This document shows, in pieces, positions 3,889 through 30,224 of a DNA stretch of 33,074 nucleotides; position 1 is the stretch's first letter, and each line of letters starts with the position of its first letter. This DNA is from a virus: positions 1-33,074 of IMG/VR virus record IMGVR_UViG_3300037189_001799. One strand, given 5' to 3'. The notes under the pieces were generated by a model. It was not told the DNA's origin and did not search any database. It was given only the letters and a program-made list of their open reading frames with translations. A program made the position numbers and the translations under genes.

Positions 3889-4039
3889 TATTGGTAGCAG
3901 ACAACCAATGCATCAGTTAAAACTTTGCAACAAATGCGAAGAGAAAAGACCGCCCGAAGGCGGCGTTCAAATGAACCCAAGTAGATGGTATTGCGCTTCA
4001 TGTTGGGCAAAGAAAGTAACCGTTAGGAACCTAAAATGA
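3860..4039 (+). CDS. zinc-ribbon protein, GTG start
   Basis: GTG at 3860 is preceded by GGAAGGAG with five-base spacing, which makes it the best start and gives 59 residues. Two CxxC knuckles, C23-x2-C26 and C45-x2-C48, are separated by 18 residues, the layout of a small treble-clef or zinc ribbon. The protein is otherwise basic. It overlaps the DNA polymerase start by four bases (ATGA), so it may be co-regulated with the polymerase; a nucleic-acid-binding role is likely but unproven. Confidence 0.65.
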   Translation: MNGFVKRQIDIGSRQPMHQLKLCNKCEEKRPPEGGVQMNPSRWYCASCWAKKVTVRNLK

Positions 4040-5940
4040 CACCTGTCTATATAGACTTTGAGACCTTTTGGTCTACTACTCACTCACTGACAAGGATGCC
4101 CCCGACAGAATACGTCATGCACCCTGATACAGAAATACAAGCGGTGGCTATCAAAGTAGCTAACTTCCCGACCGATGTGTACTTTGGCGAAGACAAAATA
4201 CGAAAGGCGTTGCATAGCCTTGACTGGCATGACAAGATTGCCATTGGACACAACATGTCCGGCTTTGATTCCATGATCCTTGCTTGGCGCTTTGGCATCA
4301 AGCCTAAGATGTGGGGTTGCACGCAAGCCATGGCCATGTCCAAATATAAGAAGACCTGTGGTGTATCACTGAAGAACCTGAGCAAAGAATTCAACATTGG
4401 CGCTAAGCTGAGCCTTGAGGCGACTAATACTAAGGGTAAACGCTTAGTTGACTTTACGCCTACTGAGCTTGAGTCCATGAAAGAGTACAACAAGGTCGAT
4501 ACTGACCTGTGTGCGAAGTTGTTCAAAGAACTAGCCAAGGGTATATCCAAGGCCGAGATGGTTCAGATCGATATGACTACACGAATGCTTGTGGAGCCTA
4601 AGTTCAATCTCGACTACAGATTAATCCGGGAGGCACAAGAGTCTGTTAAAGCCGAAAAGAGTCGCTCACTACGTGAGCTAGCCGAGCAGATCGGCATCGA
4701 CGATATCGTGGACGAAGTATCTATTGAAGAGCAAGTGCGTACCCAACTGGCTAGTTCGGCTAAGTTCTCCGAGTTGCTTACGAGCCTTGGCATCGATCCT
4801 CCGATGAAACAGTCGCCGACTAACCCTGCCAAGATGACACCTGCGTTGGCTAAGACCGACGAGGAGTTCATCAAGCTCCAAGAACACGCTAACCCAATCG
4901 TTGCTGCGGCTGCAAGGGCGCGCCTCGAAGTCAAGTCCACGCTGCTGGAGACACGCCTAGAAGCGTTCATTCGTGCGGCTGATGCCTGTGGTGGCAAGTT
5001 GCCCGTGCCTCTTAGATACTGCGGTGCTGACACAACTGGTCGTTGGTCCGGCGAGCAATACAACATGCAGAACCTACCGCGTATAGGTAAAAACCCTAAG
5101 CCATCTGACGCATTACGCATGAGCCTTCTTGCCCCCAAGGGTTACAAAGTTATCGTGGCTGATCTGTCAGGTATTGAACTAAGGGTAAACCACTACTTGT
5201 GGAAGGTTCCGTCGTCTATGGAGATGTATGCGGGCGATGCCGAAGCCGACTTGTACCGAGCGTTTGCTGCTGCAAGGTACGACATTGACCCAGAAGCGGT
5301 AACTAAAGATCAACGACAACTAGCCAAGGTCGCTCAGTTAGGTCTAGGCTTTGGGGCGGGTGCGCCCACGTTCAAGCGTGTAGCCAAACTCATGGGCGGC
5401 TTAGAGCTTACAGATGCCGAGTCGCTGAGCATCGTGACGGATTGGCGTGAGCAGTATTCAGACATTGTGGATGGGTGGAAGTCCTTTCAAAAGAGTCTGA
5501 TCGATCTGATGCAAGGCAATGAGACTGCCATTGATCCATGGGGTATGTGCGTTACCGAACACAAAGCGGTTCGCCTGCCATCAGGCCGACGCATTTACTA
5601 TCCGGAGTTGCGCAAGGAAGTAGACAACGGCAAGCACGAATGGTGGTATGGAGCAGGCCGGCACAAGGCTCGTATCTATGCCGGGAAAGGTGTAGAGAAT
5701 CTTGTCCAAGCCCTTGCCCGAGATGTGATTGCGGGTAACGCCCTTGAGTTTCGTAAGCGCACGCAAATGTCGCCAACACTCATGGTGCATGATGAGCTTG
5801 TTTATGTAGTGCCTGAAACTTATGCTGAGACGCTGCTCAAAGAGTTGCAAAACATTATGCGCACACCGCCTGCATGGTGGCCTGAGTTGGTCACATGGTC
5901 TGAAGGTGACATAGCTGATTGCTATGGAGAAGCTAAGTAG
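4036..5940 (+). CDS. family A DNA polymerase with 3'-5' exonuclease
   Basis: This 634-residue replicative polymerase has a proofreading domain and a polymerase domain but no 5'-3' exonuclease domain. Exo I is IDFET (D7, E9); Exo II is the GHNMSGFD segment (about 74-81); Exo III is YNKVD...L. In the polymerase domain, motif A is DLSGIELR (D376, E381), motif B is RQLAKVAQLGLGFG (K431), and motif C is HDE (H585-D586-E587). All catalytic carboxylates are present, so it should be active. Aligning motif B with the E. coli Pol I O-helix puts Leu435 at position 762 and Phe439 at position 766, instead of the Phe/Tyr and Tyr usual there. It overlaps the zinc-ribbon gene by ATGA. Confidence 0.95.
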   Translation: MTPVYIDFETFWSTTHSLTRMPPTEYVMHPDTEIQAVAIKVANFPTDVYFGEDKIRKALHSLDWHDKIAIGHNMSGFDSMILAWRFGIKPKMWGCTQAMAMSKYKKTCGVSLKNLSKEFNIGAKLSLEATNTKGKRLVDFTPTELESMKEYNKVDTDLCAKLFKELAKGISKAEMVQIDMTTRMLVEPKFNLDYRLIREAQESVKAEKSRSLRELAEQIGIDDIVDEVSIEEQVRTQLASSAKFSELLTSLGIDPPMKQSPTNPAKMTPALAKTDEEFIKLQEHANPIVAAAARARLEVKSTLLETRLEAFIRAADACGGKLPVPLRYCGADTTGRWSGEQYNMQNLPRIGKNPKPSDALRMSLLAPKGYKVIVADLSGIELRVNHYLWKVPSSMEMYAGDAEADLYRAFAAARYDIDPEAVTKDQRQLAKVAQLGLGFGAGAPTFKRVAKLMGGLELTDAESLSIVTDWREQYSDIVDGWKSFQKSLIDLMQGNETAIDPWGMCVTEHKAVRLPSGRRIYYPELRKEVDNGKHEWWYGAGRHKARIYAGKGVENLVQALARDVIAGNALEFRKRTQMSPTLMVHDELVYVVPETYAETLLKELQNIMRTPPAWWPELVTWSEGDIADCYGEAK

Positions 5941-13746: not shown

Positions 13747-13777
13747 AGTCCCCGGCGTAAAAACCGGGGACTTTTTT
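13747..13777 (+). terminator. strong Rho-independent terminator at gene convergence
   Basis: AGTCCCCGG (13747-13755) pairs with CCGGGGACT (13764-13772) around an eight-base loop and runs into six T residues. It ends the rightward replication operon. It also lies immediately past the stop of the last leftward gene, but on that strand the stem is followed by AAAGTAAACC rather than a T-run, so it should work mainly rightward. Confidence 0.9.
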
Positions 13778-14027
13778 ACTTCTTCAGCGTTGCTGCGTTA
13801 GTCTTCGGGTTGTACTTGAAGTCACTAGCAGAACGCCCACTGGCTTTAGCTGCACGGTCTTTGGCTCGACCGGCGTTACCTAAGGCTTGACGGGACTCAC
13901 CCTTGGCGGTGAGCTTACCGTCCTTCAAATCCCCACGTTTAGTTAAGATGGCAATAGCCATACCCTTGGCGTTCTTGTTACCCTGTGAGGCAAGTTGCCG
14001 TGTCAGTCTAGTTTCTAACTTAGACAT
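13776..14027 (-). CDS. small basic phage protein, 83 aa
   Basis: This is the last gene of the leftward block. It is very basic (lysine and arginine throughout), with KGESRQALGNAGRAKDRAAK in the middle and YNPKTNAATLKK at the end, a pattern I recall from small proteins of uncultured podoviruses. No membrane or enzymatic motif is present. The start overlaps the upstream stop by one base (TAATG). A nucleic-acid-binding or virion-associated role is a guess based on charge and position. Confidence 0.7.
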   Translation of the reverse strand: MSKLETRLTRQLASQGNKNAKGMAIAILTKRGDLKDGKLTAKGESRQALGNAGRAKDRAAKASGRSASDFKYNPKTNAATLKK

Positions 14028-14180: not shown

Positions 14181-14444
14181 TTAGCAATTCCATGCACGCA
14201 ACGATTTATTGATCCGAGAGTTCGGGTCTTTGGCCGTCTTCTCGCTTGTCAACTTCGACTTCATGCCCTCCATCCGAGCGCAGAAAGAGTCGCGGCGTGG
14301 GCCACCCTGTGGCTGTGGAGCCTTCAGTCCCGGCTTGCCCGGATTGGCTTTGTTGTAAGAGGCTCGCCCTTTTGCGTTGAGACCACCCTTTGGGTCCTTG
14401 CCTTCTTTTCGTGTCCATGCTGCGGTCTTTGGTTTAGTGGCCAT
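14181..14444 (-). CDS. small basic phage protein, DUF6321-like
   Basis: The 87-residue product begins MATKPKTAAWTRKEGKDPKG and continues GGLNAKGRASYNKANPG, PRRDSFCARM.GM and SRINKSLRAWNC. I associate the AWTRKEG..P.GGLNAKGRASYN signature with a conserved phage family (DUF6321 is my best recollection). Function is unknown. Its start overlaps the stop of the giant ejection protein by one base (TAATG), so it is translated with the late virion genes and may be a minor virion or packaging-related protein. Confidence 0.7.
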   Translation of the reverse strand: MATKPKTAAWTRKEGKDPKGGLNAKGRASYNKANPGKPGLKAPQPQGGPRRDSFCARMEGMKSKLTSEKTAKDPNSRINKSLRAWNC

Positions 14445-17400
14445 TATTGTGCTCCAACGAGTTCCTGAGTAAATCGGCGTGTCTGTTTATTAAACTGAAT
14501 ACCGCCGGCTGTCTCTCGCTCACGTTTTGCTTGCGCCTGAGGAGCTTGCAGAAGGTTAGACAGTGGCTCACGCTTGAAGCCTTCGCTGACTCGCTCTTCT
14601 TGGAGTTTATTCCATTTTTCACGAACAGCGCTAGTATCATCACCCTCACGGCGAGCCTTGGTGTATTGATTCTTCAGTTTGGCAGCTTTGTCCTTGAAGG
14701 CTTTTTCTTCTTCAAACTTTATATCCGTCAAGAAGCGACGTTTAGTATCTGATGTAACTGGTACACCAAAGAACTTAGCCGTAGATTCCCATGCAGCAAT
14801 CTCATCTGCGGGAACAAGCACATCGCCATTGAGACGAGTCACACCTTCATTGTTCTCACGAACAGCTTTCATGGCATCTGAGATACCTTTGGGTGCTAGT
14901 TTTTCCAACCCGCGATGGTACTCTCCGCCACCTATTAATTTCAAGCCATCAGCAAAGCGTTGCGCTAACGAGCCTGATGCTCCAAACGCCATGGCAAACC
15001 CTGCTTCAGCAACGCCGGCCTTAGACAAGTCAAAATCAGTAAATGGTAAGACAGACAAAGCGTTACCCATACCAAGTTTGCCTGATAGGTCTATGCCTGC
15101 AGCAGCAGGCGCACCGCGCATGATCAACGTCGCGGCATCTTCACCCCACTGCGAGACCATGGCCTCATACAATTCTTTTTCAAGGTTATAAGGCTCTTCA
15201 TCGTCTCCAAACGTGCCAGCCAAGCCTTTGAGGATAAACGATATGGCAGCAAAACCGGGCATACCCACGAGTCCTGCCATTGCAGCAGTATGACCTAGGG
15301 TAAACGCTAATGCTTTACGAGCCGCAGTACGCTCTTCTTTTGTCCCACCTTTGACAGAGTTTGCCACCAGCTTAGTCAGTAGTGTTAACTGGATTAACTG
15401 GAACTTGCGGAACTGCAAAGCAACTTTACCGGCATTGGTATTAAAAGCACGGGGTGCATTGATGCGGGTATAGTCGCCATGGGTCTGAGCAATTACACTG
15501 TCGGCATACTCAGTAGCATCTTTAATGCTACCAGTCTTAGCCAACTCAAGTCGGTATGCAGCAATGGCCGTGGATACACGGTTAATTGCTTCCATCTTTT
15601 GACCAACAGAACGTAGCACACGATCAACTTTATTTACGGCTTGGGCAGCTTTGCTTTCGCCTGCAACTTGGAACTTGCCAAGTTCGGTCTCCATACCAAT
15701 GTCAATGCGACCACGATCCACCAAAGTGGAAATCATCTTGCGCACATCTGCAGGCACGTTTTCAAAATCAAGCGGTTCGTCGATCTTTTTGTTCTTGTTG
15801 AGGCCGCCAAGCTGGGTGTATGCTTTGAGCAACGCTGCCTGAGCCTTGAAATAATTGTGGCGACCTGCCATGAATGGAACTGACAGCATGACTGGCTGTG
15901 TCAAGTTCTGCAAGTAGTACATTGGGCTTGTAGCCAACATCCATACGGAGGTAACACGGCTAGCCTTGGCAGCAACATCACTCCACTCAGAATTGTCGTA
16001 ACTCAATGACTGGTTGTGGCGAGCCATGATCTCATTAAACAACTGAGACTTCTCAAGCTGATCGCCGCCTTTCTTAGTTTCACGACGCATCTCATTGATG
16101 GCTTCAGTCATCTGTGGAGAATACTTAGCTGTTGCCAAGAACTGTGCATCGGCTCGGCCTTGTGTGGCAAACGAACGCAACATATCAATCTCACCTGCAA
16201 CACCCTTGCGGCGCATCTCAGCTTTACGAGAACTGTTCTCGGCTAACGCAGCCAAATACAAATCGGCTACCACAGCACGGGCTTTTGACAAAGCCTCACG
16301 CTCTTTGGGGTCCGTCACATTGGACAACTCAGCATCCAAATCCCCACGCAACTTGTTAAAAGCCTGCATCAGACCGCCATACATGCGGTTGCTTGGGTCT
16401 TCTTTCTCACGAGCTACCACTTCAGCAAAAGACTTTGTGCCTTCAAGTTCGCGTTGCAACTCAAGCGCCGACGCAGTGGACTCAGCAAAGCTCACATGAT
16501 ACTGGTCAGGATCGCTCTCAAGCTTGGCTTGCTCAGCAGGCGTTGCATCCAAATACTTCTGTGACTTGGCAATCACTACATAGTTACCGAAACGCTTCAT
16601 TGGAGCGTAAGGGTTGAACTCAGATACCGCAAAGAGGCGAGCAAACTGGGCTAACTGCGCCTTTTTGTCCGCTTGGAACTTAGCTACCTTGGCTGTATCA
16701 CCCTTAGCCTGTGCATCTTTAATAAGTGCATCGTACTCAGAGTTCGTGGCATCCATCAAGGTCTGCTTCTTCAGCTTGAGCATGGCATCACCATGGGCAA
16801 ACACTGCCTCAATCCAGTCTTGTGACGGTTGACTCAACGCATCAAAACGCTTGCTCATCGCAGGATCAATCTTGACCTTATCGCTTGTGCCAGTGCGCCA
16901 AGTAGGTTCAAACCCCCACTTCTTTTCACGAGTCATGTCATAGACAAACTTGTTGGCACTCGTGTCGCTAGTACCGCGCTCTTTTACTGGAATCTTGTTA
17001 TACAAAGATGCCACGCGCTCAACGTCACGTTCAATCTGACCTTCAAGGTTTGTACGCTCGCGGTAGATGGTGTCCATCTTCTTAGCCGCTTTGATACCAG
17101 ACTTGACGGCTCGCTTGAATAAATCCTCAGTAAACACCACGGAGTTCAGCAACTTCGACGACACCGCCGAGACTGCCTTGGCCGCAGGAGACTTTAGGAT
17201 TTCTTCTTTGTTGGCTCGTAATTGCCGTCCATTAATTTCTTGAGGTTTGACCCCAGCTTGAACTTGTCCTGACTTAGCACCTTGAACGGCTCCGGCTGTT
17301 TGGGTGCTTGTTGCGGCTTGTTTAATTTTTGCATTTGTGCGCTCCATGAAAGCCGCAGTCAGCGGCAGGTTATCTTTTAAGAACAAGCGGGCTTGCTCCA

Positions 17401-20400
17401 TGCCATTGAAAGCGTACAGTTGCGCAAAGATTTCTTCACGCATACTGTCTGAATTGAGGCCCTTGTTATCCACGAAAGGATACACCATCATTTGCGACAG
17501 TGGAGAATCAGGCTCATTAATGAAATGGTTGTACACCTCACGGGTTACAGCCCCGACAGGACGCAGCTTGCCATTATTAAACGTCAAGTTCAACTCGGGA
17601 GAGCTAGAGTACGTACCGCCTTGACCATCTACAACACCGTCAGCACCGTGGCCAACTTCGTGCATCAATGTAATCGTGGCAAGATATTGATCGTTAAGCG
17701 CTGCTTGGCTAAAGATGATTGTGGGCTTGCCGTCAACCATGGCAAACAGGCCGTCCCACGGAACATTATCGTTTGTGACTAACCAGTTCTCAATGTTCTG
17801 GACGTTGGAAATCAAACCTGCTTTTTGCAGATGCTTGAGGCCATTGGTAATACCGGTGTACTTAACCAGCTTGGCAAGGTTAGTCGGCTGTGTCTTAAAC
17901 GTATTACCGTCGTTGTCTTTCCACTCTTGGCTGGTAGCTGATTTGCTGTAGCGGGCTGTGCCGTCATCAGCTTCAAAGTCTTCGGTGTACATCTCACTGG
18001 CCGTATCGTCGGCAACACGGTCAAAGTCCATGTTGTTTTCAATAACCGTGGAAAGTGATGGCTCAGATGCCAACGTAAAGTCACCGCCAGTACGGGAAGC
18101 TACTTCATCAAGATAACCCTTTTCGCTCTTAGTCAACTCACCATATGAGTTCAAACCGGGCATGTCTTCACGCAGTTGTTCCCACACGTCACGGCCAGTC
18201 AATTCACTTGTTGCGGCTTTCTGTTCAGTCGGCTCGGCCAACGCTGCGGCTTTGCTATTCTTCTTGGTTTTTGTAGGCTTTTTCTTACCTGACAAAAACG
18301 CTGCATACTTTTCCATGGCAGCGACTTGCTTGGCTTGTAGTTCCGTTATTTCCGCTTTTAGTTGGTCGGCGATAGCCGGAACTTCTAGGGCTAGCGCTTC
18401 TAGCTGTTCAATTTTATCGGCGATAGTGTTAACGGCATTTGCCAAAGCTTCATCTTTGACATTCAAAGTATCGCCTACACCTTTAACACCTTGAGCCCAT
18501 GTGCGAGTATCGTCATAGCCAAAACCACCCGTTGCACCTTCTTCAGATTCCACACCGACAGCAGTTAAAGCATCTTCTAAGCCGCCCGTCTTTCCGCCAG
18601 CAGTGGTGCTAACTCCACCTTTTGCAGTATCTGCAACACCTAGTAAGTTACGAGCTTGCGCTTCAGTCATCCCCATGGATACCGCGGCGTTGACCATATT
18701 GGTTGTATTACCAATCTTACGAACCGCCTCTGGGCCAATACCAAACTGTTGACCAATAGCAGCTTGCGCTTTAATAGCGTAGCCCTCAGGAGCGCCTTTC
18801 ATTGCAGCAAGATAAGCTTTGGCAATCTCAATGTCACGAGCTTTGTCTTTGGAGTTCTCAAACGTCTTGTCCAGAATCTGGTCAGTGGCTTGAGCAACAG
18901 CCTCGTCGGTAACATTAGTGTCTTCGCGTTGACCTAAGTTTTCCTCAGTCAAAGCTTGAGTTTCGGCAGTGTTGCCAGTCAATTCACCAATGGCTAACTG
19001 ATCTTCTAAAGAAGTCTGAGCTGGTTGTTCTGCGGGTAAACCCTGATCTTGCTCAGTTGTTGTTTCCGGTGCAACAAACGCTTGGCCTTGTTGTGGTTGA
19101 TCAAACGTAATTCGCTTTTTACGAGAAACTACAGGGGTAGCAGGTTGGCCGGAGACATTTCCGAGAAGTGAAGTTTCATTACCTGCGGGGCTAATTCCGG
19201 CAACACGGGAACCCACGTCTGCCACGGGTCCGCTAGTAAGAGCTGGTCCTGTAGGAGCCACGCTTCCCTGTACGTCAGGGCCCCCAGTTGCCACGCTCGG
19301 TGCAAGTCCTCCTGTAGCGGAAACATCAGTGCTGACATTTTGATCCTCTGGTTTTGGAGCCCGTTGGAATTTAGGCTGATTAGCTATACGCTGTTTCTCT
19401 TGGAAGTCAGCTTCAACTTGCGCAAAAGATTTAGTGGCTTCGGCGTATCGACCCTTTTTAAGCTGCTCAATCGTTTGATCGAACATGGCTCTATCAATTG
19501 CGCCACTGCCAAGCAAATCAACTGCTTTGGTAAACGCTTCAATGCGTTTGACGTTGGGTTTACCTCTACTACCTACAAGACTCAGGCCAACTTTAGACGC
19601 AGCAGCCTGTAAGTCATCAGCAACAACTTGTGAAGTTGTCTCGCCAGATGGTGCTTCAGCAGATGTAAGTGTTCCCAGTTCAGGTGTTTCGTAGCCAAGG
19701 GATGCAGCTTCACCCATGGTAAGTTCGCGCTCAAGGCCATTCTCATCAGTAACGTAACGACCGGATGGCTCGCTCAGGGCTGCTTTAATATCTGCTTCAC
19801 GCGCAGCACGTTGGGCTTTTGTAGCCGCGGGAGTAACACCCGTTTGGACGTTAATTAAGTCCTGCGTAGACAGACCCGCACCCTTGTTGATGCCGAGCAT
19901 TAGGCTCTGGTCAACTGACGGATTGGCCGTGCCAAGAATGTTGGACTCATAAGCGCGGTTGTTCAGATAGGCAACCCCTCCACCTCCGCCAGCGCCCATA
20001 ATGCCGCCAAGGGTAGCTGCACCTACAACACCGCGCATGGGGTCAATCGTGGGGTCATATTGCATTGCAGCAATATTGGCAGAAGCTTTTGTGCCGCCTT
20101 CTTCAATACCCTCTGTAAGAAACTCTTTTCCAGCGGTGCGACGAATACCTTCACGGGTAATGCCGCGAGCACCAGACATAATTCTTTCAAGGCCAGTAGC
20201 ACCGGACAACCCGCCCAAAATAGCAGGCACAACCGATGCCTGACGTGCAGCTTGGCGAGCCATGGATTCTCGTTGGTCCTCTGGAATGTTCGGGCTGTTC
20301 ATCACCTGATCGTAGGCATCAGAAGCAGCATCACCGCCAGCGGCGGCTCCACCCAACGTAGCACCAGTACCAAGGCCAGCAATGCCTTGTCCACGAGCAC

Positions 20401-20866
20401 CTAGACCAAGAGCTTTAGCACCAACAGTGCTGTACTTAACGGCTTTACCTATGGGGCCAAAACCACCAACAATCTTGCCTGCAGTCTGCACAGGAGATGA
20501 TAGAACGTATTTGCCAACACCTTTGACAGCTTCAAAGCCGCCTTCATCCATGGCTTGGCCTAGTTCTTCCTCGGCTTGTTTGACTTGAGGGCTGTAAGTT
20601 TCTTCGCCCTCTTTAATGATGTAGTCTAAACCTCGTGACAGAGGGTTGTCTACCGAAACAAAATCACTAATGCCTTTGACAATACCAAGGCCGGAGTTGA
20701 TCGTTGTAACAACGGTGTCGTTGAGAAACTCTAACGGGTTGCGCATGCCAGAGGCATCGCTTTCGCCTCGCATGGGAACTTTGTAGACCGAAGTAAAACC
20801 TTCAAGTGCCCGCGGTGCATCTTCTCGTGATCTACCGGAAGGAGTAAACCCTTCAATGATTGGCAT
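14444..20866 (-). CDS. giant polyvalent internal virion/ejection protein (PLxRFG type)
   Basis: At 2140 residues this is the largest gene and occupies the T7 gene 16 position. Residues about 110-310 are rich in Gly/Ala with hydrophobic stretches, suggesting membrane insertion. A low-complexity Pro/Gln/Thr region (about 490-650) and a helical, charged part follow. LMHEVGHG gives an HExxH metal site (H1069, E1070, H1073), so a metallopeptidase-like domain is likely. NPYAPMKRFGNYVV (PMKRFG at 1422-1427) is a variant of the PLxRFG motif of large polyvalent phage proteins. Another hydrophobic Gly/Ala segment lies at about 1845-1880. Such proteins are packaged and injected with the DNA. I see no lytic transglycosylase motif. 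Confidence 0.8.
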   Translation of the reverse strand: MPIIEGFTPSGRSREDAPRALEGFTSVYKVPMRGESDASGMRNPLEFLNDTVVTTINSGLGIVKGISDFVSVDNPLSRGLDYIIKEGEETYSPQVKQAEEELGQAMDEGGFEAVKGVGKYVLSSPVQTAGKIVGGFGPIGKAVKYSTVGAKALGLGARGQGIAGLGTGATLGGAAAGGDAASDAYDQVMNSPNIPEDQRESMARQAARQASVVPAILGGLSGATGLERIMSGARGITREGIRRTAGKEFLTEGIEEGGTKASANIAAMQYDPTIDPMRGVVGAATLGGIMGAGGGGGVAYLNNRAYESNILGTANPSVDQSLMLGINKGAGLSTQDLINVQTGVTPAATKAQRAAREADIKAALSEPSGRYVTDENGLERELTMGEAASLGYETPELGTLTSAEAPSGETTSQVVADDLQAAASKVGLSLVGSRGKPNVKRIEAFTKAVDLLGSGAIDRAMFDQTIEQLKKGRYAEATKSFAQVEADFQEKQRIANQPKFQRAPKPEDQNVSTDVSATGGLAPSVATGGPDVQGSVAPTGPALTSGPVADVGSRVAGISPAGNETSLLGNVSGQPATPVVSRKKRITFDQPQQGQAFVAPETTTEQDQGLPAEQPAQTSLEDQLAIGELTGNTAETQALTEENLGQREDTNVTDEAVAQATDQILDKTFENSKDKARDIEIAKAYLAAMKGAPEGYAIKAQAAIGQQFGIGPEAVRKIGNTTNMVNAAVSMGMTEAQARNLLGVADTAKGGVSTTAGGKTGGLEDALTAVGVESEEGATGGFGYDDTRTWAQGVKGVGDTLNVKDEALANAVNTIADKIEQLEALALEVPAIADQLKAEITELQAKQVAAMEKYAAFLSGKKKPTKTKKNSKAAALAEPTEQKAATSELTGRDVWEQLREDMPGLNSYGELTKSEKGYLDEVASRTGGDFTLASEPSLSTVIENNMDFDRVADDTASEMYTEDFEADDGTARYSKSATSQEWKDNDGNTFKTQPTNLAKLVKYTGITNGLKHLQKAGLISNVQNIENWLVTNDNVPWDGLFAMVDGKPTIIFSQAALNDQYLATITLMHEVGHGADGVVDGQGGTYSSSPELNLTFNNGKLRPVGAVTREVYNHFINEPDSPLSQMMVYPFVDNKGLNSDSMREEIFAQLYAFNGMEQARLFLKDNLPLTAAFMERTNAKIKQAATSTQTAGAVQGAKSGQVQAGVKPQEINGRQLRANKEEILKSPAAKAVSAVSSKLLNSVVFTEDLFKRAVKSGIKAAKKMDTIYRERTNLEGQIERDVERVASLYNKIPVKERGTSDTSANKFVYDMTREKKWGFEPTWRTGTSDKVKIDPAMSKRFDALSQPSQDWIEAVFAHGDAMLKLKKQTLMDATNSEYDALIKDAQAKGDTAKVAKFQADKKAQLAQFARLFAVSEFNPYAPMKRFGNYVVIAKSQKYLDATPAEQAKLESDPDQYHVSFAESTASALELQRELEGTKSFAEVVAREKEDPSNRMYGGLMQAFNKLRGDLDAELSNVTDPKEREALSKARAVVADLYLAALAENSSRKAEMRRKGVAGEIDMLRSFATQGRADAQFLATAKYSPQMTEAINEMRRETKKGGDQLEKSQLFNEIMARHNQSLSYDNSEWSDVAAKASRVTSVWMLATSPMYYLQNLTQPVMLSVPFMAGRHNYFKAQAALLKAYTQLGGLNKNKKIDEPLDFENVPADVRKMISTLVDRGRIDIGMETELGKFQVAGESKAAQAVNKVDRVLRSVGQKMEAINRVSTAIAAYRLELAKTGSIKDATEYADSVIAQTHGDYTRINAPRAFNTNAGKVALQFRKFQLIQLTLLTKLVANSVKGGTKEERTAARKALAFTLGHTAAMAGLVGMPGFAAISFILKGLAGTFGDDEEPYNLEKELYEAMVSQWGEDAATLIMRGAPAAAGIDLSGKLGMGNALSVLPFTDFDLSKAGVAEAGFAMAFGASGSLAQRFADGLKLIGGGEYHRGLEKLAPKGISDAMKAVRENNEGVTRLNGDVLVPADEIAAWESTAKFFGVPVTSDTKRRFLTDIKFEEEKAFKDKAAKLKNQYTKARREGDDTSAVREKWNKLQEERVSEGFKREPLSNLLQAPQAQAKRERETAGGIQFNKQTRRFTQELVGAQ

Positions 20867-20877
20867 AGTGCCCCCCG

Positions 20878-22128
20878 TTATTTGGCTTTAGCTTTTTTAG
20901 CTTCGTCAAGTGTACTGTAATAGTTGCCGTCTTTGCCTTTATACGCAATGACTGGTTTACCATCTACTGAACCAACTTCCATGGGAATCTTAGCTGTGCG
21001 GGATTCTTTAACCATGCGGTTGTAGTCCGAGCTTGTAACGCCCAATGGCACTTCTAAACCACCGCCAACAATGTTATACAGCGGACGACCTTCTGCACTG
21101 TAAGCAACTGTATTGCCTTCTTGGTCTGTCATGACTTTAGCTGGAACGGGTCGTGTAGATTTAGGTTGTAACTTGGGGAATGATCCTTCAAAGCCTTCTG
21201 GAACTTTAAGTGTGGCTTCTACACCGCCTCGAGTTCCAAAGATGGTTCTTCCGTTGTCGCCTAAACCTAATGGCTCAAAACGCTCAGGAGCCCGAGAATA
21301 CATACCGCCAGCTTTTCTTGCAGTAAATTCATCACGGTTAAGTGCCAAGTTGCCTGCATAATAATCTGCCTGCCGCGCTTTAAACTGAGCGTCGGTTTCA
21401 TTGGCTTGTCGTTTTATACCAAGACCTTCGCGTTCCAAACCAACCTGCTCTTGCTTCATGGCAAGCTCGGCGTATTTAGGATCAACACTAGCTAGTTCGT
21501 CAAAATACATGGACTTTGCTACGCGCATCATGTCCTGCCTAGTCACAGGAATTTGCGAAGCTTGTTGACCTTGAGGGCCATAGATATTCAATACAGTACC
21601 TTGAGCCGTACTCATGGGAGCTGCCACAAATCCTTTCGTGCCGGGGCCGCCATACTCATCTGAGTTGAACTTAGCAAGGTTCTCTTGCACCCATTTGTTT
21701 GGATCAGCGTTAATGGCTTTAACTGTATCAGCGTAGCTAGTTTGGATAGACTTAAGTCTGTCAGCAGACTCTTCTGCGCGAGAAGCTTGGTTTAACTGCA
21801 AACCCAACATCTGTGATTGACGGTCCGGCGAAGCAGAATAGATTTCAGCTTGCCGCGCCAACATCTGGGCACGAGACAGCTTCTGTGCAGGCTTGGTAAT
21901 AAACTCCCCAGACACATCGCGTTCTTCTGGCGTCTCGGCCTGAATACCCTTGATCTGTTCGCCAACACGCTTTTCTTCAGCAATCCGTTCACGCTCACGT
22001 TGCTGTAATTCTTTGCGAAATTGTGCTTCTTCTTTGCGGTTCTTGGCCTCGTCCATGCGTTCGAGGTCTTGTACTCCAGCAGAGATACCTTGGCCAACGC
22101 CACCCAAAATGCCCATGATATTGGCCAT
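20878..22128 (-). CDS. internal virion protein, T7 gp15-like position
   Basis: The 416-residue protein starts with a short Gly-rich stretch (MANIMGILGGVGQGISAG), then a long charged coiled coil (about 18-75; RKEEAQFRKELQQRERERIAEE). A mixed alpha/beta middle follows, then a C-terminal part with GKPVIAYKGKDGNYYSTLDEAKKA. It sits between two other internal-virion-like genes directly upstream of the giant ejection protein, the place of T7 gene 15. I cannot show sequence homology; assignment rests on order and composition. Confidence 0.6.
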   Translation of the reverse strand: MANIMGILGGVGQGISAGVQDLERMDEAKNRKEEAQFRKELQQRERERIAEEKRVGEQIKGIQAETPEERDVSGEFITKPAQKLSRAQMLARQAEIYSASPDRQSQMLGLQLNQASRAEESADRLKSIQTSYADTVKAINADPNKWVQENLAKFNSDEYGGPGTKGFVAAPMSTAQGTVLNIYGPQGQQASQIPVTRQDMMRVAKSMYFDELASVDPKYAELAMKQEQVGLEREGLGIKRQANETDAQFKARQADYYAGNLALNRDEFTARKAGGMYSRAPERFEPLGLGDNGRTIFGTRGGVEATLKVPEGFEGSFPKLQPKSTRPVPAKVMTDQEGNTVAYSAEGRPLYNIVGGGLEVPLGVTSSDYNRMVKESRTAKIPMEVGSVDGKPVIAYKGKDGNYYSTLDEAKKAKAK

Positions 22129-22403: not shown

Positions 22404-23849
22404 TTAAGGCTTTCCTATACCAAGTTTGTTTTCGTACGCCAAACCATCTTGACGAATCTTCTCTAGTTTAGCAAGTCCAATGCGGTCAACCGCATCAGGT
22501 TGGATGATGAATTCGTCGTCCGATACACGAACTTTGACCATTGAACGTTTTTTCTTAGTGGCAGAATGGTCTTCAACTTCGTTCATCTTCTCCAACGCTT
22601 TACGTCCCAGCTTCCTCACCACACCAATGGGCATAACAAAAGCACCCTCTGGAATTTCAGTGGCAATCAAATCGTCTTTGGGACCGCCGGGGCCATCTAT
22701 CTCGCCACCGCGCATGTAGGGTTGCTGGTTAACAACGCCGCCGTTTTTAAACAAACCCAAGGCTGAGCCTACAAGCATTGCGCCGCCAATCCATGGCATA
22801 GCAGCACCTAAAGCAGCACCCGCACCCATAGAACCAGCAACGCCCTCAAGAACTGCACCGCCAGCGCCTTCCGCCATAGCAGCAGCGCCTGTAGTACCGC
22901 CAAGGCCACCCGTAGCAATGTCAGCCGCGGCCATCTCGGCAGTAGGAGGTAGAATAGAATTTACCTGCGCAGCAGCTTGTGAGTAAGCATCAATGGCAGG
23001 TTGGGCTTCTTTGCCCAAACGCATACCTTGACCATACGCAGTCATATTAGTGTTGCCAGTCATACTGCCAACTTTTTCTACGCCTGTACCTAGCATCTCT
23101 CGACCGCGCATCAAACCTTGACCAGTCGCGGCAGCATTAGCGTTTGACATATCCGGGCTGCCTGTTGGGGGAGGCGGAGGGGTAATTTGCTCCATTGCGC
23201 CAGTAATGCCGCCGCGAGCTAGACGTTGAACGTAACCGCCGCCTTTAAGTTTTAAGACAGGGCCGCCATCAGCACCAAAGAATGTGGGGTTATTACGGGT
23301 AAACCCGTATAGATCAATACCACCGCGCACAGCGCCAGCCACGTTTTGGCCCATTTGCTGTTGACCTTGGTTGTACATGTTTGCTAGGTTTGATCCTGTA
23401 GCAGCTGTACTTGAGAGAGCAGATGACGCATTAGATGGCACACCTGCTAGCAAACCAGTAGTGTCTTGCATACGGGCAAAGCCCATTTGATCAACACGCT
23501 CACGAGCACCGGTCATACCGGCAGCGCCACCGCCGTAGGCAGTTGTAGCCAGTTTTCGCATTTCTTTGGCGTACCGAGGGTCCTCAGGGTTAATACCCAT
23601 AGAAGCCAGATCGCTCTTGTATGCACCCATGGCTGAACCAAATGAAGATTCTGCATCGGCTTTTGCTTGTGATGCTGCTCGTTCTTTGTTTGCAAGAGAC
23701 CCATAGTCAGCTGATTCACTGACCATGCGTTCGTACATGGGGTAAGTTAATTTCTCAGATAACCCCATTAAACGCTCAGACTGTGCAGCCTGTGCGCCGT
23801 AAAGCTTCTCTAAGTTTGCGTAGTATTGATTGCCGCCACCGCCGCCCAT
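22404..23849 (-). CDS. internal virion protein, T7 gp14-like position
   Basis: The 481-residue protein begins MGGGGGNQYYANLEKLYGAQAAQ, a helical N-terminus typical of internal virion proteins, and carries a Gly/Ala-rich hydrophobic segment (about 303-368) that could enter a membrane. Two related C-terminal units, EIPEGAFVMPIGVVRKLG..ALEKMNE (399-424) and SDDEFIIQPDAVDRIGLAKLEKI (443-465), look like tandem copies of the pattern EF(V/I)(M/I)P.(A/G)V..(L/I)G...L. Context (GNAT-like gene before, coiled-coil virion gene after) matches T7 gene 14. Confidence 0.65.
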   Translation of the reverse strand: MGGGGGNQYYANLEKLYGAQAAQSERLMGLSEKLTYPMYERMVSESADYGSLANKERAASQAKADAESSFGSAMGAYKSDLASMGINPEDPRYAKEMRKLATTAYGGGAAGMTGARERVDQMGFARMQDTTGLLAGVPSNASSALSSTAATGSNLANMYNQGQQQMGQNVAGAVRGGIDLYGFTRNNPTFFGADGGPVLKLKGGGYVQRLARGGITGAMEQITPPPPPTGSPDMSNANAAATGQGLMRGREMLGTGVEKVGSMTGNTNMTAYGQGMRLGKEAQPAIDAYSQAAAQVNSILPPTAEMAAADIATGGLGGTTGAAAMAEGAGGAVLEGVAGSMGAGAALGAAMPWIGGAMLVGSALGLFKNGGVVNQQPYMRGGEIDGPGGPKDDLIATEIPEGAFVMPIGVVRKLGRKALEKMNEVEDHSATKKKRSMVKVRVSDDEFIIQPDAVDRIGLAKLEKIRQDGLAYENKLGIGKP

Positions 23850-24722: not shown

Positions 24723-27134
24723 TTAAGTCCAGACAGGTATATAAAGAGTTGTTGCATCAATTGTAATCTGCATCCAAGTATTTGAACTTGCGCTGCCGGG
24801 TTTATTGGTTCCTGAGAACCCTGCTGTTGCCGCTCCACTTACCGTCCCTTGAACAAACCTCATAACATTTGAGCCAGCAGAACCATTTAATCTATTTGCA
24901 GCATACGCATCTGTTCCCAAAGCAGTTGTGGCAAACGCACTTATTGCTTTCCAAGTACCGTCACTGTTTAAATACGAAGCGGCGGCAGCTGCAACAGAGG
25001 TAGAAGGGGCTAACAATGTCCAAACAGCGCCGCGGTTATTGCTGTAACCCAAACCAAGATCGCCTTGAAAAAACACACAGGGTGACAAAGCGCTGTAAGC
25101 AATGATTGCGTAACCCCCACCGGAACTACTAAATTGGGCGGCATTACCTACTGAATCTGCACGCAATCCAAGCCCTGTTCCGTAGTTGATTGCATAAATT
25201 GTAGGTAAACCAAACGTGCCGGTTGTAGTGCTATAAAAATTCCCCGCTGAACCCGTGCCTGTGTTGTTGCTATAAACTCCCGTACCGGAAGAACTATTAC
25301 TGACATACAAAGAAGCACCGCCCGCATTGGTTGTAATTGCCGCGCCAATGTCGCCAAAACCTGATTGGTTAAAAGAACCGCTTACAGTAAATCTACCTTT
25401 AACAGTAGTTTCACCTCCAAAATAAGCCGCACCGTCAGAACCACGCATCCAAAAGTTTGTTCCTGAAGTAGTTCCTAACGTAGCACCTGAAGATAAAATA
25501 TTTCCTGCAGTTACATTTCCTGCAAAATTTCCCGTTGCTCCAGTAATGTCACCCTTAAACGTAGCAGCCCCGGTTGTAGCATCAATGGTAAACGTTGTAC
25601 TAGCCGAAGTTCTACCAACAATACCTTTACTCGTAAAAGCCACGCCATCACCAGTAGCGTTACCAGAGCCATCAATAGAAATAGTTCCAGTTTTAAATCC
25701 GCCGGCAGAGGAAAATGTAATACCGCCACTCAAAATATCAGCAGCATTCTTATTAAGTTTATTTGTAACTTGTGATAACGCACTGGTTGCATTGGCATCC
25801 GCAGATGTGGCAAGACTTAAGGCGCTAGAAGCATTACCCTCTACCGCTGTCAACGTAGTCCCGCCTGCACCTATGGTGACACTACCAACAATAATAGAAC
25901 CCGCGCTAATCGTACCCTTAACAGTCAGGTTGCCCGCAGCACTAATAGCCACCGAGTTGTTCCACGCACCAGTGTTGTCGTTGTATCCCATGGCAATACC
26001 AGCGGACGAGATACCCACCGCAGGGAGAATGCCTAGACCGGCTGCTGATGTGCCGTTGTACACCGCATCTTTGTGCTGAAACGCAATAAACGCAAGAGAT
26101 GCATCAACTTTGAGGCGGTAGTTAGAACCCGTGCCTGCAAGGATGTTGGTGACTCCAGAGTTTAAATTTGATTGAAGCGTTGAACTAAAACTTGCGGATG
26201 GTAAGGCTCCACTAGCCTGCGATGCAATGATGGACAGGGATGTGCCGCCAGCAGAGTTTAAAGTTACCGAATCAGTAATGATTGCGCCGGCTGATACCGT
26301 ACCCACAAAACTACCCGAGGCTGCAACCAGAGCACCAGCAAATGTAGCCGCTCCCGTTGTGGCGTCAATGGTAAATGTCGTATTAGAAATATTACGACCA
26401 ACAATACCTTTACTTGTAAAAGCTACGCCGGCTCCGGTAGCATTACCGGAACTATCAACAGAAATCGTACCGGTTTTAAATCCGCCAGCGCTGCTAAATT
26501 CAATCGTTCCGCTAAGAATGTCAGCAGCATTCTTATTAAGTTTGTTTGTAACCGATGCAGCGTTATTTACCACATCACTAACTAAGGTTGACCCAAGGTA
26601 CGCGCTGGCTGAAATAACAGATGCCGCCCTAATTGTTCCTAACAAAGTCAAATTACCCGTGGAAGATTCAATGGCAAAGGTTGTCTGCCACACACCGTCA
26701 GATGTTCGGTTGTATCCACCTAAAATACCTGTGGATGTAATGCCTAAACCGGTTCGGACAGTGCCGGAGTAAGCGCCAGTTGTGCCAAGGACAACTGCAT
26801 CTTTATGTTGAAACACAACGTACTGACCGGCAGGCTCTAACTTCATAACGGTTGTGCCGTTAGTTACACCAGTAATTACTTCTGCTGCACCGCGTTTTAA
26901 ATCAGCAGTCAACGTGTCCAGCGTATAGGATGGAGCAAGGTTGGTAATGTTTGTACTACTAACACCACTGCCAAACGTAGATGCTCCGCCTACTGGTGTT
27001 AGCGCTGTGTTTGTATTTGTACTAGTGCCAGAGTCGATGACCACTTGCATGTTTCGACTAAGAACATCTAACACCGCCCTCACTTGAGGGTCAGCTACCG
27101 CGTATGTCGGTGGGAGTGGAATAAAGTTAGACAT
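24723..27134 (-). CDS. tail fibre protein with internal duplication
   Basis: ATG at 27134 overlaps the preceding gene by eight bases and gives MSNFIPLPPTYAVADPQVRAVL, a typical phage tail-protein start; a longer open frame extends upstream without support. The 803-residue protein is rich in Gly/Ser/Thr/Ala and beta-prone, as trimeric fibres are. Residues 195-270 and 456-531 are near copies of each other, and a shorter FQHKDAV unit is repeated at 108-114 and 352-358. The C-terminus (about 600-803) is non-repetitive and probably holds the receptor-binding or tip domain. No enzymatic motif or intramolecular chaperone is evident. Confidence 0.75.
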   Translation of the reverse strand: MSNFIPLPPTYAVADPQVRAVLDVLSRNMQVVIDSGTSTNTNTALTPVGGASTFGSGVSSTNITNLAPSYTLDTLTADLKRGAAEVITGVTNGTTVMKLEPAGQYVVFQHKDAVVLGTTGAYSGTVRTGLGITSTGILGGYNRTSDGVWQTTFAIESSTGNLTLLGTIRAASVISASAYLGSTLVSDVVNNAASVTNKLNKNAADILSGTIEFSSAGGFKTGTISVDSSGNATGAGVAFTSKGIVGRNISNTTFTIDATTGAATFAGALVAASGSFVGTVSAGAIITDSVTLNSAGGTSLSIIASQASGALPSASFSSTLQSNLNSGVTNILAGTGSNYRLKVDASLAFIAFQHKDAVYNGTSAAGLGILPAVGISSAGIAMGYNDNTGAWNNSVAISAAGNLTVKGTISAGSIIVGSVTIGAGGTTLTAVEGNASSALSLATSADANATSALSQVTNKLNKNAADILSGGITFSSAGGFKTGTISIDGSGNATGDGVAFTSKGIVGRTSASTTFTIDATTGAATFKGDITGATGNFAGNVTAGNILSSGATLGTTSGTNFWMRGSDGAAYFGGETTVKGRFTVSGSFNQSGFGDIGAAITTNAGGASLYVSNSSSGTGVYSNNTGTGSAGNFYSTTTGTFGLPTIYAINYGTGLGLRADSVGNAAQFSSSGGGYAIIAYSALSPCVFFQGDLGLGYSNNRGAVWTLLAPSTSVAAAAASYLNSDGTWKAISAFATTALGTDAYAANRLNGSAGSNVMRFVQGTVSGAATAGFSGTNKPGSASSNTWMQITIDATTLYIPVWT
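25542..25769 (-). repeat. tail-fibre internal repeat, copy B
   Basis: This stretch encodes residues 456-531 of the tail fibre and is a near copy of 26325-26552. Bases 25738-25769 match 26521-26552 at 31 of 32 positions. The repeat starts VTNKLNKNAADILSG and ends TIDATTGAATF. Confidence 0.75.
26325..26552 (-). repeat. tail-fibre internal repeat, copy A
   Basis: This stretch encodes residues 195-270 and is the partner of 25542-25769. Similarity at both protein and DNA level points to an intragenic duplication or recombination rather than convergent fibre composition. Confidence 0.75.
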
Positions 27135-29127
27135 TACGGAACTCTGACATAGATTCTGCCATGGCAATTTCTTCAATTTTACCGGTTGTTTGAACCCGTA
27201 CAGACCAACGTAAAGCACGCTTGCCCGCAGGTAGGCGGTAATACCCAGTGGCTGCAGCTGTAAAAGTAGTCCAAGATGCGCCATCGACATAAATAGTCAC
27301 GGCAGTTGAAGCTGTGCACCGAATATAGAATGCGCCAAAGTTTGTGTAATTTGGCATGGTGAACTCTTTGCTCCACCAATCCAGCGTGTAGTAAGCAGCC
27401 GCACCATCACGCAGGCGATACACATTTGCACCCTTGGAGTAATACAGAGTGTCTGTGATTGGCAAATAAAACATCGAGTCAAACGTCTCGTTGAACTGGG
27501 TCAGCGTGCCGGCAGCTTCGTCTAGCCTGATAATAATCCCCTTGGCTTCCTGAGAAGACACCATGACAAGGTAGCCATCTGTATAGCCAAACCGAGCATC
27601 GTCGGCAATCGTGGCAAACGTAGCACGCCAGTCCTCCCGAGAGTAGAACTTCTGGCTCAACGTCATTGTTGATTGTGAGCCTTGTACCAAGACAATACCG
27701 TCAGCGGATGCGTAAGCAACAGCGCCCTCTAAGTTAACCATGAGCCTCTGGGCAATACCGGCTTGGGGAAGCGGCAACTTTTGCTGAGACAAATTAGATG
27801 GCAAACTACCAAGAACAATATATGCGCCAGTGTTTGTCGTTACCACTAGGGACTGTGCATCGGTGCAGAGACCTATAATGTTGTTTGGGAATGACATGGC
27901 ATAAGGCCAAGCGTGCGGTCTAAACGGTTCGCTGAAATACAGCATGTTGTTTTTGTACGCCGCAAAGAATCCGTTTGGCATGGAGACCAAACCGGTCATG
28001 CCCGTTTCAGGGATATCCCAATCGAGGGATGGCAGGGGCACACCAATGTCGGAAGCTTTGTAAGTCTCGTCTTTGTAAACGCCGCTTCCTAGACTTGTTG
28101 TAGTAATCTTAAAGTACGTAGGGTTTGTACCAAACGTGCGGTAGATATTGACCGTAGACTTAGGAATGTAGCCAGTGAACGAGGGGTCTGCCGTGGTAAC
28201 TTCTACGTAATCAAGGTACGTCAAAGAGACAGCGTTGGCCCCAGATGGGACGGATTCTTCAAGAATGGCGTTTACCATTGTGTACACGTAAGCACGGGTC
28301 TCAACAACTCCCCACTCAAAAGTCAATGCGCCATCTGTAGACAACATGACTTCTACACCGCCGGGAAACGCATTGCTTCGTGTAGGCGTTGTCGCACCGG
28401 AAGCAACTGTCACATTAAAGATTTCTTTGTTTGCGTTAGTTGTATCTTTAATGATGATCTGCGCTGTTAGCTTGGCATCAGGAGGAGTTCCAGTGGCAGC
28501 TACGGCTTCGGTAACGGTTGTAGTTGTGTTTTGCTCAGTCTGCTCAAACGTAGACGTGGCTTCTTGGCCAGCGTTATAAAGAGTACGGGTGGGTGGAGTA
28601 AACGTATATTTCTTCCATGGAGACACCACAACAAACGAAGTCATTGCGCCTTCTTGGTATCTCTTACCATTGAGCTCGTACCATACAGTGGTTGTGACAC
28701 TGATACTGGGATAGTCAGGCAATGAGGCCCGCTGCTTTAGCACAAGGGTAGGAGACACCGTAGGAGCAGGAACACCCACAGTGTAAGACGTGCTAGGCTC
28801 GCCTCCGGTAGCGGTTGCTAATGAATACTGGGCAACTTTGAACCCGCTTGAGTTCATAAAGTACATGCGCCCGTAGGTGTCGTTATTAACGGGGGTTCTA
28901 ACTGCAAACGTCTCAACTGGCCATGTGAAGAAATTAACGCCTTCTTCGGTATAAATACCTCTGACCGTATTGGTCATGGTTTTAATTAGTGTGCCCCCTC
29001 GTAGCGGGCGTAAGTCATTTTGCGCAAAGTCACAAAATAAAGCCTGCTGAGCGTTGATATCCGGCAGTTTATAGTCCGGCACATTTGGCAGTTCGCCAGA
29101 AAAGTTTTTTAGTACGAGGGTAGTCAT
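27127..29127 (-). CDS. nozzle-like tail protein (T7 gp12 position)
   Basis: The 666-residue protein begins MTTLVLKNFSGELPNVPDYKLP, with an N-terminal NAQQALFCDFAQNDLRPLRGG segment, and is beta-rich throughout, with LVSMPNGFFAAYKNNMLYFSEPFRPHAWP resembling the central part of podovirus nozzle proteins. It lies upstream of the fibre and the gene 13-16-like block, as T7 gp12 does. The family is recognised by architecture and context, not by a profile search. It overlaps the tail-fibre start by eight bases. Confidence 0.7.
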   Translation of the reverse strand: MTTLVLKNFSGELPNVPDYKLPDINAQQALFCDFAQNDLRPLRGGTLIKTMTNTVRGIYTEEGVNFFTWPVETFAVRTPVNNDTYGRMYFMNSSGFKVAQYSLATATGGEPSTSYTVGVPAPTVSPTLVLKQRASLPDYPSISVTTTVWYELNGKRYQEGAMTSFVVVSPWKKYTFTPPTRTLYNAGQEATSTFEQTEQNTTTTVTEAVAATGTPPDAKLTAQIIIKDTTNANKEIFNVTVASGATTPTRSNAFPGGVEVMLSTDGALTFEWGVVETRAYVYTMVNAILEESVPSGANAVSLTYLDYVEVTTADPSFTGYIPKSTVNIYRTFGTNPTYFKITTTSLGSGVYKDETYKASDIGVPLPSLDWDIPETGMTGLVSMPNGFFAAYKNNMLYFSEPFRPHAWPYAMSFPNNIIGLCTDAQSLVVTTNTGAYIVLGSLPSNLSQQKLPLPQAGIAQRLMVNLEGAVAYASADGIVLVQGSQSTMTLSQKFYSREDWRATFATIADDARFGYTDGYLVMVSSQEAKGIIIRLDEAAGTLTQFNETFDSMFYLPITDTLYYSKGANVYRLRDGAAAYYTLDWWSKEFTMPNYTNFGAFYIRCTASTAVTIYVDGASWTTFTAAATGYYRLPAGKRALRWSVRVQTTGKIEEIAMAESMSEFRNV

Positions 29128-29158: not shown

Positions 29159-29755
29159 TCAAGCTTTCAGCACTTCCAGCGCATGATTTATATGTTTAAT
29201 GCGGTCTTGCAGCCCGATTGTGCCGCCATTGATCTTCTTAGTCATGGTCAAATAGTCCATACTGTCAGCAAACCGGTTGAGCTTCTGAACATCCCAAAAC
29301 CAGCCGGCAGTCAACGCAGCGTACATGGGAGTGGCCACAAGATCGGGCTCCATGATGAAATCCACCCCAAGGGCTTGCCCTGCGTGATGGTAATTAGCCG
29401 CGCCAGTGAGCTGTATACATCCGCGTCCGCGGAAACGCCATCCATCCCCTGAGGCTTCGTCCCGGTTGTTCATCCGGTTAGAGTACACCGTATTGGCAAT
29501 GAGTTTTGGGTTACGGGCGCAGGCTTGAGCCTTGGCTGCGTCAAACCGTTTGGGCCACAGTTTTTGAAGAGCCTCGGCTCTGTAGTTTAAGTTCTCTTCA
29601 AGGATTCTAAAGTTCCCACACTCATGTCCGCACTGGCCTATGAAGGCCGCTTGGCGCAAGGGCGTAGAAATATCAAACCGCTGGAATGTGCTGTTTAGCG
29701 CATCAACCCAATCAGAGCCGATGTGCAGTTTCTGTAGTTGGGCTTCACTGACCAT
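29159..29755 (-). CDS. GH19 chitinase-like endolysin
   Basis: The 198-residue protein has the lysozyme-superfamily GH19 layout used by many phage endolysins: AAFIGQCGHECGNFRILEENLNY with putative catalytic Glu45 and a second acidic residue near Glu54, then RFRGRGCIQLTGAANY (about 107-122). It would cleave the glycan backbone of peptidoglycan. No signal peptide or membrane segment is present, so release needs a holin. It overlaps the Rz gene by 11 bases, placing it in one lysis cassette with spanins and holin candidates. Confidence 0.88.
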   Translation of the reverse strand: MVSEAQLQKLHIGSDWVDALNSTFQRFDISTPLRQAAFIGQCGHECGNFRILEENLNYRAEALQKLWPKRFDAAKAQACARNPKLIANTVYSNRMNNRDEASGDGWRFRGRGCIQLTGAANYHHAGQALGVDFIMEPDLVATPMYAALTAGWFWDVQKLNRFADSMDYLTMTKKINGGTIGLQDRIKHINHALEVLKA

Positions 29756-30224
29756 TGATAAGATTCCTTACTTCGTTGTAAGCGGCGGCGCAAGCGTTGA
29801 GCTTGGTGATGGCTTTATCCCCGTCGGCTGCGATGTCGATAAGAGCTGATATAAGCGCTCGCTCAGATTCGCTTTGCTCGGGTTGCTCGGGTTGTGGATT
29901 TCCAACGGGAGCAGAGGCACTTTGGCTGGCTTGTGGACAACTGGGGGTGGGGAGGCGCAACCGACCAGTGCGAGCAAGCTCGTGCATAGCAGACTGTTTC
30001 TTAGCAATTTCATCTTGAGCCTTTCTGAGTTGGGTTTCGTGATCTTGCAGCTTAGACGCCATCGTTTGCTCTAGCGCCCTCGCTTCTTCATTTTTCTTTG
30101 CAATGGCAACTTGCATGTCTTTGTCACGGTCTTCCCAACCAAAATGGTAGCCACCGCGGTATGTACCAAACACGGTAATGGCTAAGCCGACGAGTATCCA
30201 AGGTAATGGTATGCCAAACATCAT
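29745..30224 (-). CDS. Rz: Rz-like inner-membrane spanin
   Basis: The 159-residue protein begins with a single membrane helix (PLPWILVGLAITVFGTY, about 7-23), followed by a charged coiled-coil region (about 32-85; EEARALEQTMASKLQDHETQL) and a Pro/Gln/Ser-rich linker. This is the standard i-spanin layout: inner-membrane anchor and periplasmic rod. An outer-membrane partner is nested in another frame inside it, which strongly supports the call. The stop of the upstream gene overlaps the start by ATGA; ATG at 30221 is an alternative start. Confidence 0.85.
   Translation of the reverse strand: MMFGIPLPWILVGLAITVFGTYRGGYHFGWEDRDKDMQVAIAKKNEEARALEQTMASKLQDHETQLRKAQDEIAKKQSAMHELARTGRLRLPTPSCPQASQSASAPVGNPQPEQPEQSESERALISALIDIAADGDKAITKLNACAAAYNEVRNLINGQ
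29768..30013 (-). CDS. Rz1: Rz1-like outer-membrane spanin lipoprotein, nested in Rz
   Basis: This 81-residue ORF lies wholly inside Rz in another frame. Its N-terminus is a lipoprotein signal, MKLLRNSLLCTSLLALVGC, with lipobox LVGC (lipidated C19), followed by a proline-rich ASPPPVVHKPAKVPLLPLE region, as in lambda Rz1. The fully embedded arrangement is the classic spanin gene design. The mature lipoprotein would sit in the outer membrane and contact Rz across the periplasm to fuse the membranes at lysis. This indicates a Gram-negative host. Confidence 0.85.
   Translation of the reverse strand: MKLLRNSLLCTSLLALVGCASPPPVVHKPAKVPLLPLEIHNPSNPSKANLSERLYQLLSTSQPTGIKPSPSSTLAPPLTTK

Follow-up and report, generated by a model that had tools for sequence, protein, structure and literature searches.

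P0001, a 2140-residue protein of an uncultured short-tailed phage (podovirus), combines a predicted zincin-like metallopeptidase domain with a C-terminal domain of the PLxRFG/tail-700 family. We propose that it is a giant internal or ejection protein with the job of T7 gp16, which would be packaged and injected, its peptidase then being active and most likely cutting P0001 itself. We give this reading a probability of about 0.62. The gene is an uninterrupted ORF in the window, i.e., the whole 33,074-base virus record that was analysed, which is possibly a fragment. The earlier note had its coordinates and length right, and the ORF lies on the minus strand, with an ATG at 20866 that is preceded by a GGGGGG stretch and a stop at 14446-14444. 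The gene and its immediate neighbours are as follows.

22404..23849, minus strand: 481-aa Gly/Ala-rich virion structural protein (phrog_8003), putative small ejection protein
20878..22128, minus strand: 416-aa protein directly upstream of P0001, by gene order a putative second internal/ejection protein
14444..20866, minus strand: P0001, 2140-aa giant ejection-type protein (single ORF, tail-700 family match, relatives)
14181..14444, minus strand: 87-aa DUF6321 protein (PF19846, E 9.8e-20), its ATG overlapping the P0001 stop (TAATG)

P0001 closes the virion-gene cluster, after the genes of two smaller proteins of virion type. In the order of transcription, it is preceded by genes encoding a 666-aa protein (phrog_511), a putative fibre, a 92-aa protein, a 141-aa GNAT-like protein, the 481-aa virion structural protein, an 87-aa protein, and the 416-aa protein. 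This order is conserved in relatives L002/L011, L014, and L051, and partly in many other loci. Many loci have the 481-aa gene ahead of the giant one, and the 416-aa gene also precedes the latter in L002/L011, L013, L014, L051, and L054. The largest ejection protein is found at the same gene position in T7 (gp14-15-16) and in N4 (gp52-51-50).

Downstream, many relatives also have the DUF6321 gene (50-92% identity) beside the giant gene. This adjacency persists even where divergence hides the other virion genes from detection, which suggests coupled expression and a linked function. The DUF6321 gene is followed by an 83-aa Lys/Ala-rich protein (13776-14027, minus strand), possibly DNA-binding, which is 83-98% conserved in the nearest relatives. 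An 855-aa fibre-like ORF (24723-27290, minus strand) shares sequence with the end of the 666-aa gene upstream of it; translation of this ORF probably starts at an internal ATG (MSNFIPLPPTYAV). Farther away, two ORFs at 29745-30224 and 29768-30013 (minus strand), adjoining a GH19 endolysin (29159-29755), look like a spanin pair of the embedded kind, in which a lipoprotein-like ORF (LVGC) lies in another frame within an ORF of inner-membrane type. Both ends of the window cut an ORF. At 32222-33073 (minus strand), this is an extremely Gly-rich, tail-tip adhesin-like protein. At 2-943 (plus strand), it is an ORF with another HEVGH (HEVGHIMGQH), followed by a stretch resembling the VWA-type part of phage DUF2201 proteins.

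The peptidase part of P0001 comprises the following features.

17279..17941, minus strand: predicted zincin-like metallopeptidase domain, residues 976-1196 (AlphaFold2 model, fold matches, 18-member alignment, dN/dS)
17648..17662, minus strand: HEVGH, residues 1069-1073 (model residues 94-98), predicted zinc-binding/catalytic motif in a helix
17420..17440, minus strand: REEIFAQ, residues 1143-1149, including E1145, the predicted third zinc ligand, in a later helix
17147..17296, minus strand: relaxed linker behind the peptidase, residues 1191-1240, candidate cleavage zone (dN/dS, motif list)

The HExxH motif with E1070, already singled out in the earlier note, occurs once in P0001, when ~0.004 HExxH would be expected from its composition (11 His in 2140 residues). 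Searching for relatives with the full-length protein gave two loci; the C-terminal domain by itself retrieved 52 viral and 10 genome loci, and the peptidase domain by itself 25 loci. In the 18 aligned homologues, whose whole-protein identity to P0001 is 35-85%, H1069, E1070, H1073, and E1145 are all invariant. This is also true of F1147, A1148, and Q1149, and of W1028, G1046, G1084, S1087, G1105, Y1129, P1130, P1168, and F1173, while D1076, three residues after HEVGH, is present in 17 of the 18. Y1129 is a candidate for the catalytic Tyr of lethal factor/PPEP-type gluzincins. The peptidase-only search found HExxH and ExFAQ in all 25 loci, and fusion to tail-700 in each of the 23 ORFs that are not cut off. 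The proposal in the earlier note hinged on conservation of HExxH in homologues, which is what we found, and this conservation rules out a chance motif. The peptidase domain is under strong purifying selection, with a dN/dS of 0.06-0.12 and, against the two nearest relatives, of 0.06 and 0.11; linker 1191-1240, with a dN/dS of 0.66-0.71, is relaxed.

The earlier note would also have fallen with a predicted fold unable to bind metal at HExxH, and here too the outcome speaks for it. AlphaFold2, run with the 18-member alignment, yielded a confident zincin fold for the ~220-aa peptidase domain (pLDDT 91, pTM 0.88), in which HEVGH is in the right helix (85-101) and the conserved downstream E1145 in a later one (164-179). 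The top Foldseek match in the PDB is lethal factor, at an E value of 2e-3 only, followed by Certhrax and PPEP-3 among others. VIA-align gave a Z score of 10.7 to the catalytic domain of lethal factor and of 8.4 to PPEP-2, and a profile search of PDB sequences returned lethal factor (E 2e-5), the best stretch being its N-terminal copy of the fold. Since the model and the Foldseek, VIA-align, and profile matches all point to the lethal factor/PPEP group, domain 976-1196 is predicted to be a gluzincin-type peptidase, with H1069, H1073, and E1145 as ligands and E1070 as the base. These metallopeptidases have the same predicted fold and the same HExxH plus downstream Glu as P0001, with roughly 13-19% identity over 133-159 residues, a likeness that says nothing of shared substrates. 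Pfam and PADLOC searches returned nothing significant for P0001, and a sequence search of named phages with the peptidase domain gave a best match of only E 7. Pfam ATLF is weakly matched by 11 of the 18 homologues (best 0.0024).

Outside the peptidase, which is preceded by a variable region, four further features can be delineated.

14480..16612, minus strand: C-terminal PLxRFG/tail-700 domain, residues 1419-2129 (NF032893, E 3.5e-96)
16586..16603, minus strand: PMKRFG, residues 1422-1427, the PLxRFG motif, aligning with PLGRFG/PLARFG of named phages
15212..15310, minus strand: conserved hydrophobic segment inside the C-terminal domain, residues 1853-1885
19952..20479, minus strand: N-terminal Gly/Ala-rich region, residues ~130-305, inside a phrog_18222 match

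The C-terminal domain scores 323 bits against NCBIfam NF032893 (PLxRFG domain, "tail-700"), for a cut-off of 100. The PLxRFG-like PMKRFG that the earlier note had recognised is found once in P0001, at the start of this domain. The same region also matches the C-terminal portions of a number of very long PHROGs, including one annotated as DarB-like. In named phages, the alignment is limited to the C-terminal part (69 records, with ~22-29% identity among the matches listed). The AlphaFold2 model of residues 1212-2140 (929 residues) is almost all helical (pLDDT 74, pTM 0.61). Its matches include models of other viral proteins named "large polyvalent protein", with weaker ones to the "internal virion protein D" of phage CRP-4 (E 4e-5) and a putative core protein of phage Ab05 (E 7e-4); a PDB search gave no significant match (best E 2.3). 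Aligned with T7 core proteins by VIA, it gives Z scores of 4.6-4.9 over 187-224 residues with an rmsd of 5-6 Å, a level expected of long helices; this match is suggestive only.

The earlier note had also described membrane-prone segments, and one of them stands. Residues 1861-1879 are the sole 19-residue stretch with a mean hydropathy above 1.4 (1.87), and segment 1853-1885 is hydrophobic in all 18 homologues (1.45-2.14); judging from sequence, it is a possible membrane-contact helix. The Gly/Ala regions, in which G+A reaches 42% in residues 151-200 and 251-300, are only mildly hydrophobic (maximum 1.1-1.3), and for these the description does not hold.

How does P0001 compare with known systems? 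Like P0001, T7 gp16 is encoded by the largest and last internal-protein gene, and its long helical C terminus has a predicted, weakly matching counterpart in P0001. While gp16 (1318 aa) has an N-terminal lytic transglycosylase, P0001 (2140 aa) has none that Pfam detects, but has a predicted peptidase instead. The earlier note pointed to this greater length and missing transglycosylase; both are true but unremarkable because relatives of P0001 run from ~2000 to 5000 aa with exchangeable modules. Among these, the PLxRFG/tail-700 proteins of Erwinia phage PEp14, Klebsiella phage ZX1, and Rhizobium phage RHph_TM3_14A are homologous over the C-terminal 700 aa (26-28% identity). In PEp14, ZX1, Mwe-JY07, and RHph_TM3_14A, HExxH precedes the PLxRFG position by 371-544 aa, but it is not at that place in Atu_ph08. 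The named relatives checked are 3867-4985 aa long, except RHph_TM3_14A (2307 aa), and named tail-700 records bear methylase, helicase, or transglycosylase names.

Two virion proteins of other phages bear comparison. N4 vRNAP (gp50), a giant protein of the virion that is ejected, is laid out like P0001, its HExxH domain C1 coming before the large helical domain C2 at the C terminus (PMC12633501); it has an RNA polymerase, which P0001 lacks. An hhalign comparison of the P0001 profile with single N4 gp50 domain sequences detected no similarity and is uninformative. By mass spectrometry of purified JC1 virions, the second-highest score went to gp69, a 4515-aa protein annotated as DarB-like and represented by 51 unique peptides (PMC9144972). 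It is likened to P0001 by its corresponding gene place and giant size, that is, by position and not by sequence.

P0001 matches the polyvalent proteins, which have been known since 2017 (Iyer et al. 2017, PMC5512222); it would be a good further case of these, and is not new in kind. They are huge virion-type proteins with an HEXXH helix and a later Glu helix, like P0001, and one phage-type clade of their MPTases has an Asp three residues after HEXXH, the counterpart of which is D1076. Relatives of P0001 carry ART-PolyVal, tudor, ParB-like, and sigma-like modules, as polyvalent proteins do, whereas P0001 itself has an MPTase and tail-700, with one recognisable enzymatic domain only. In that clade, Iyer et al. 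describe this Asp together with a conserved His closing strand 2, a residue that has no counterpart among the invariant positions of the 18 homologues. Since there is no conserved His besides the zinc ligands, P0001 is not clearly in that phage-type MPTase clade.

The association between peptidase and tail-700 extends beyond close homologues. We assembled 57 tail-700 proteins from the search loci and five named phages, chosen by their C terminus regardless of HExxH and with at least 600 residues upstream. HExxH or HExxxH is found within 650 aa upstream of PLxRFG in 45 of these (1.13 expected by shuffling) and within 1200 aa in 54 (1.51 expected), which leaves three with neither motif in that range. 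These counts are not independent since the 57 proteins share kinship, but the group of P0001 alone already spans 35-85% identity. The counts need HExxxH besides HExxH, about a third of the family carrying HExxxH.

In the wider group, the slot before tail-700 is occupied by either an HExxHxxD peptidase (type A, including P0001) or an HExxxH peptidase (type B), the latter mostly followed ~130-135 residues later by an ADP-ribosyltransferase. ART-PolyVal was found in 10 of 18 scanned proteins (set A5). A quick tree built from the C-terminal domain requires at least 6 switches between the two types, and well-supported branches force 5 of these. L018 (type A) and L019 (type B) share 88-100% identity in the first 900 residues and hardly differ in the last 800, but between these conserved ends their identity is mostly 17-25%. 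The L046/L023 pair shows the same exchange pattern around the slot. All exchange loci are metagenomic contigs, so that a single case could be a chimeric assembly, yet the ORFs are intact and the pattern recurrent. Many type A members have in common an SGQVQ sequence, at 1199-1203 in the P0001 linker; we rejected it as a universal cleavage site because it is absent from type B members.

Other relatives show tudor, ParB_N, and YkuD domain matches. The type A relatives L018 (4670-12295), L020 (4081-11928), and L016 (2-5116) have an extra YkuD L,D-transpeptidase-like segment before the peptidase, a candidate for another cargo domain; one member of the set matches Pfam YkuD at 0.0078. In the protein of the near relative L002, residues 883-930 form a PcrA/UvrD tudor-like domain (E 2.3e-4) before the peptidase, which is absent from P0001.

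We favour an injected gp16-like core protein because of the gene position, the presence of JC1 gp69 in virions, the layout of N4 gp50, and the proposal that polyvalent proteins are injected, their zincin domains either processing them or attacking host proteins (Iyer et al. 2017, PMC5512222). The helical C terminus would hold P0001 in the virion and help form the DNA-ejection conduit. P0001 would then enter the cell together with the DNA, and its peptidase would become active inside the host cell, where it would cut P0001 itself in the relaxed linkers flanking the domain, freeing the modules. Counting against processing, N4 vRNAP reportedly goes into the virion unprocessed although it has an HExxH domain (a report that PMC5512222 cites). 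The earlier idea of a virion protein with a metallopeptidase domain is well supported by the family, the conserved ligands, the predicted fold, the gene order, and the JC1 proteome, while delivery into the host and protease activity are what we infer from them.

Host proteins would be the main alternative substrate. Keeping the same protein and delivery, the peptidase could be an effector cutting a host protein, e.g., a defence or regulatory one, after injection, which we regard as a real but rather unlikely possibility. That near-identical relatives swap the peptidase block for an HExxxH peptidase plus ART-PolyVal is expected of effectors under host-driven diversification, and the nearest folds, lethal factor and PPEPs, act on other proteins. 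However, 54 of the 57 members retain a peptidase irrespective of the other effector domains they carry, as would be more natural for a general processing step. For this reason, self-processing is somewhat likelier than host attack.

It is much less probable that the HExxH domain binds metal without being proteolytic, as a structural zinc site or with an alpha-ketoglutarate/HExxH oxygenase-like activity. The Foldseek list does include the HExxH domain of an alpha-ketoglutarate-dependent oxygenase (8s5f, rank 15, E 0.046), and the N4 preprint cites such oxygenases beside zincins for the N4 HExxH domain (PMC12633501). However, the best fold matches are peptidases, and the general base E1070, unneeded for structural metal binding, is invariant in 18/18 homologues. 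Finally, that P0001 is a DarB-like antirestriction protein, as PHROG annotation would have it, is very improbable: phrog_10089 ("DarB-like antirestriction") matches residues 1360-2086 at 2.6e-68, but only through the tail-700 part that the two have in common at the C terminus (profile positions 3902-4590 of 4647), P0001 has no SNF2 helicase or methylase domain in Pfam, and the antirestriction label stems from other parts of those long proteins.

Returning to P0001 as a putative self-cutting ejection protein, we tentatively suggest that each exchanged cassette might bring its own protease, needed to free that cassette in the host, in what would be a self-cutting, swappable cargo system. If so, the protease would be matched to its cassette. 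Since their description in 2017, it has been an open issue whether the zincin domains of injected phage proteins have the phage protein or the proteins of the host as their substrate. The tail-700 group of P0001 is a good testing ground for it, with proteins of ~2100-2500 aa rather than 4000-5000 and one clearly conserved active site, and its natural pairs of relatives, which differ almost solely in the peptidase cassette, are suited to the question of self versus host.
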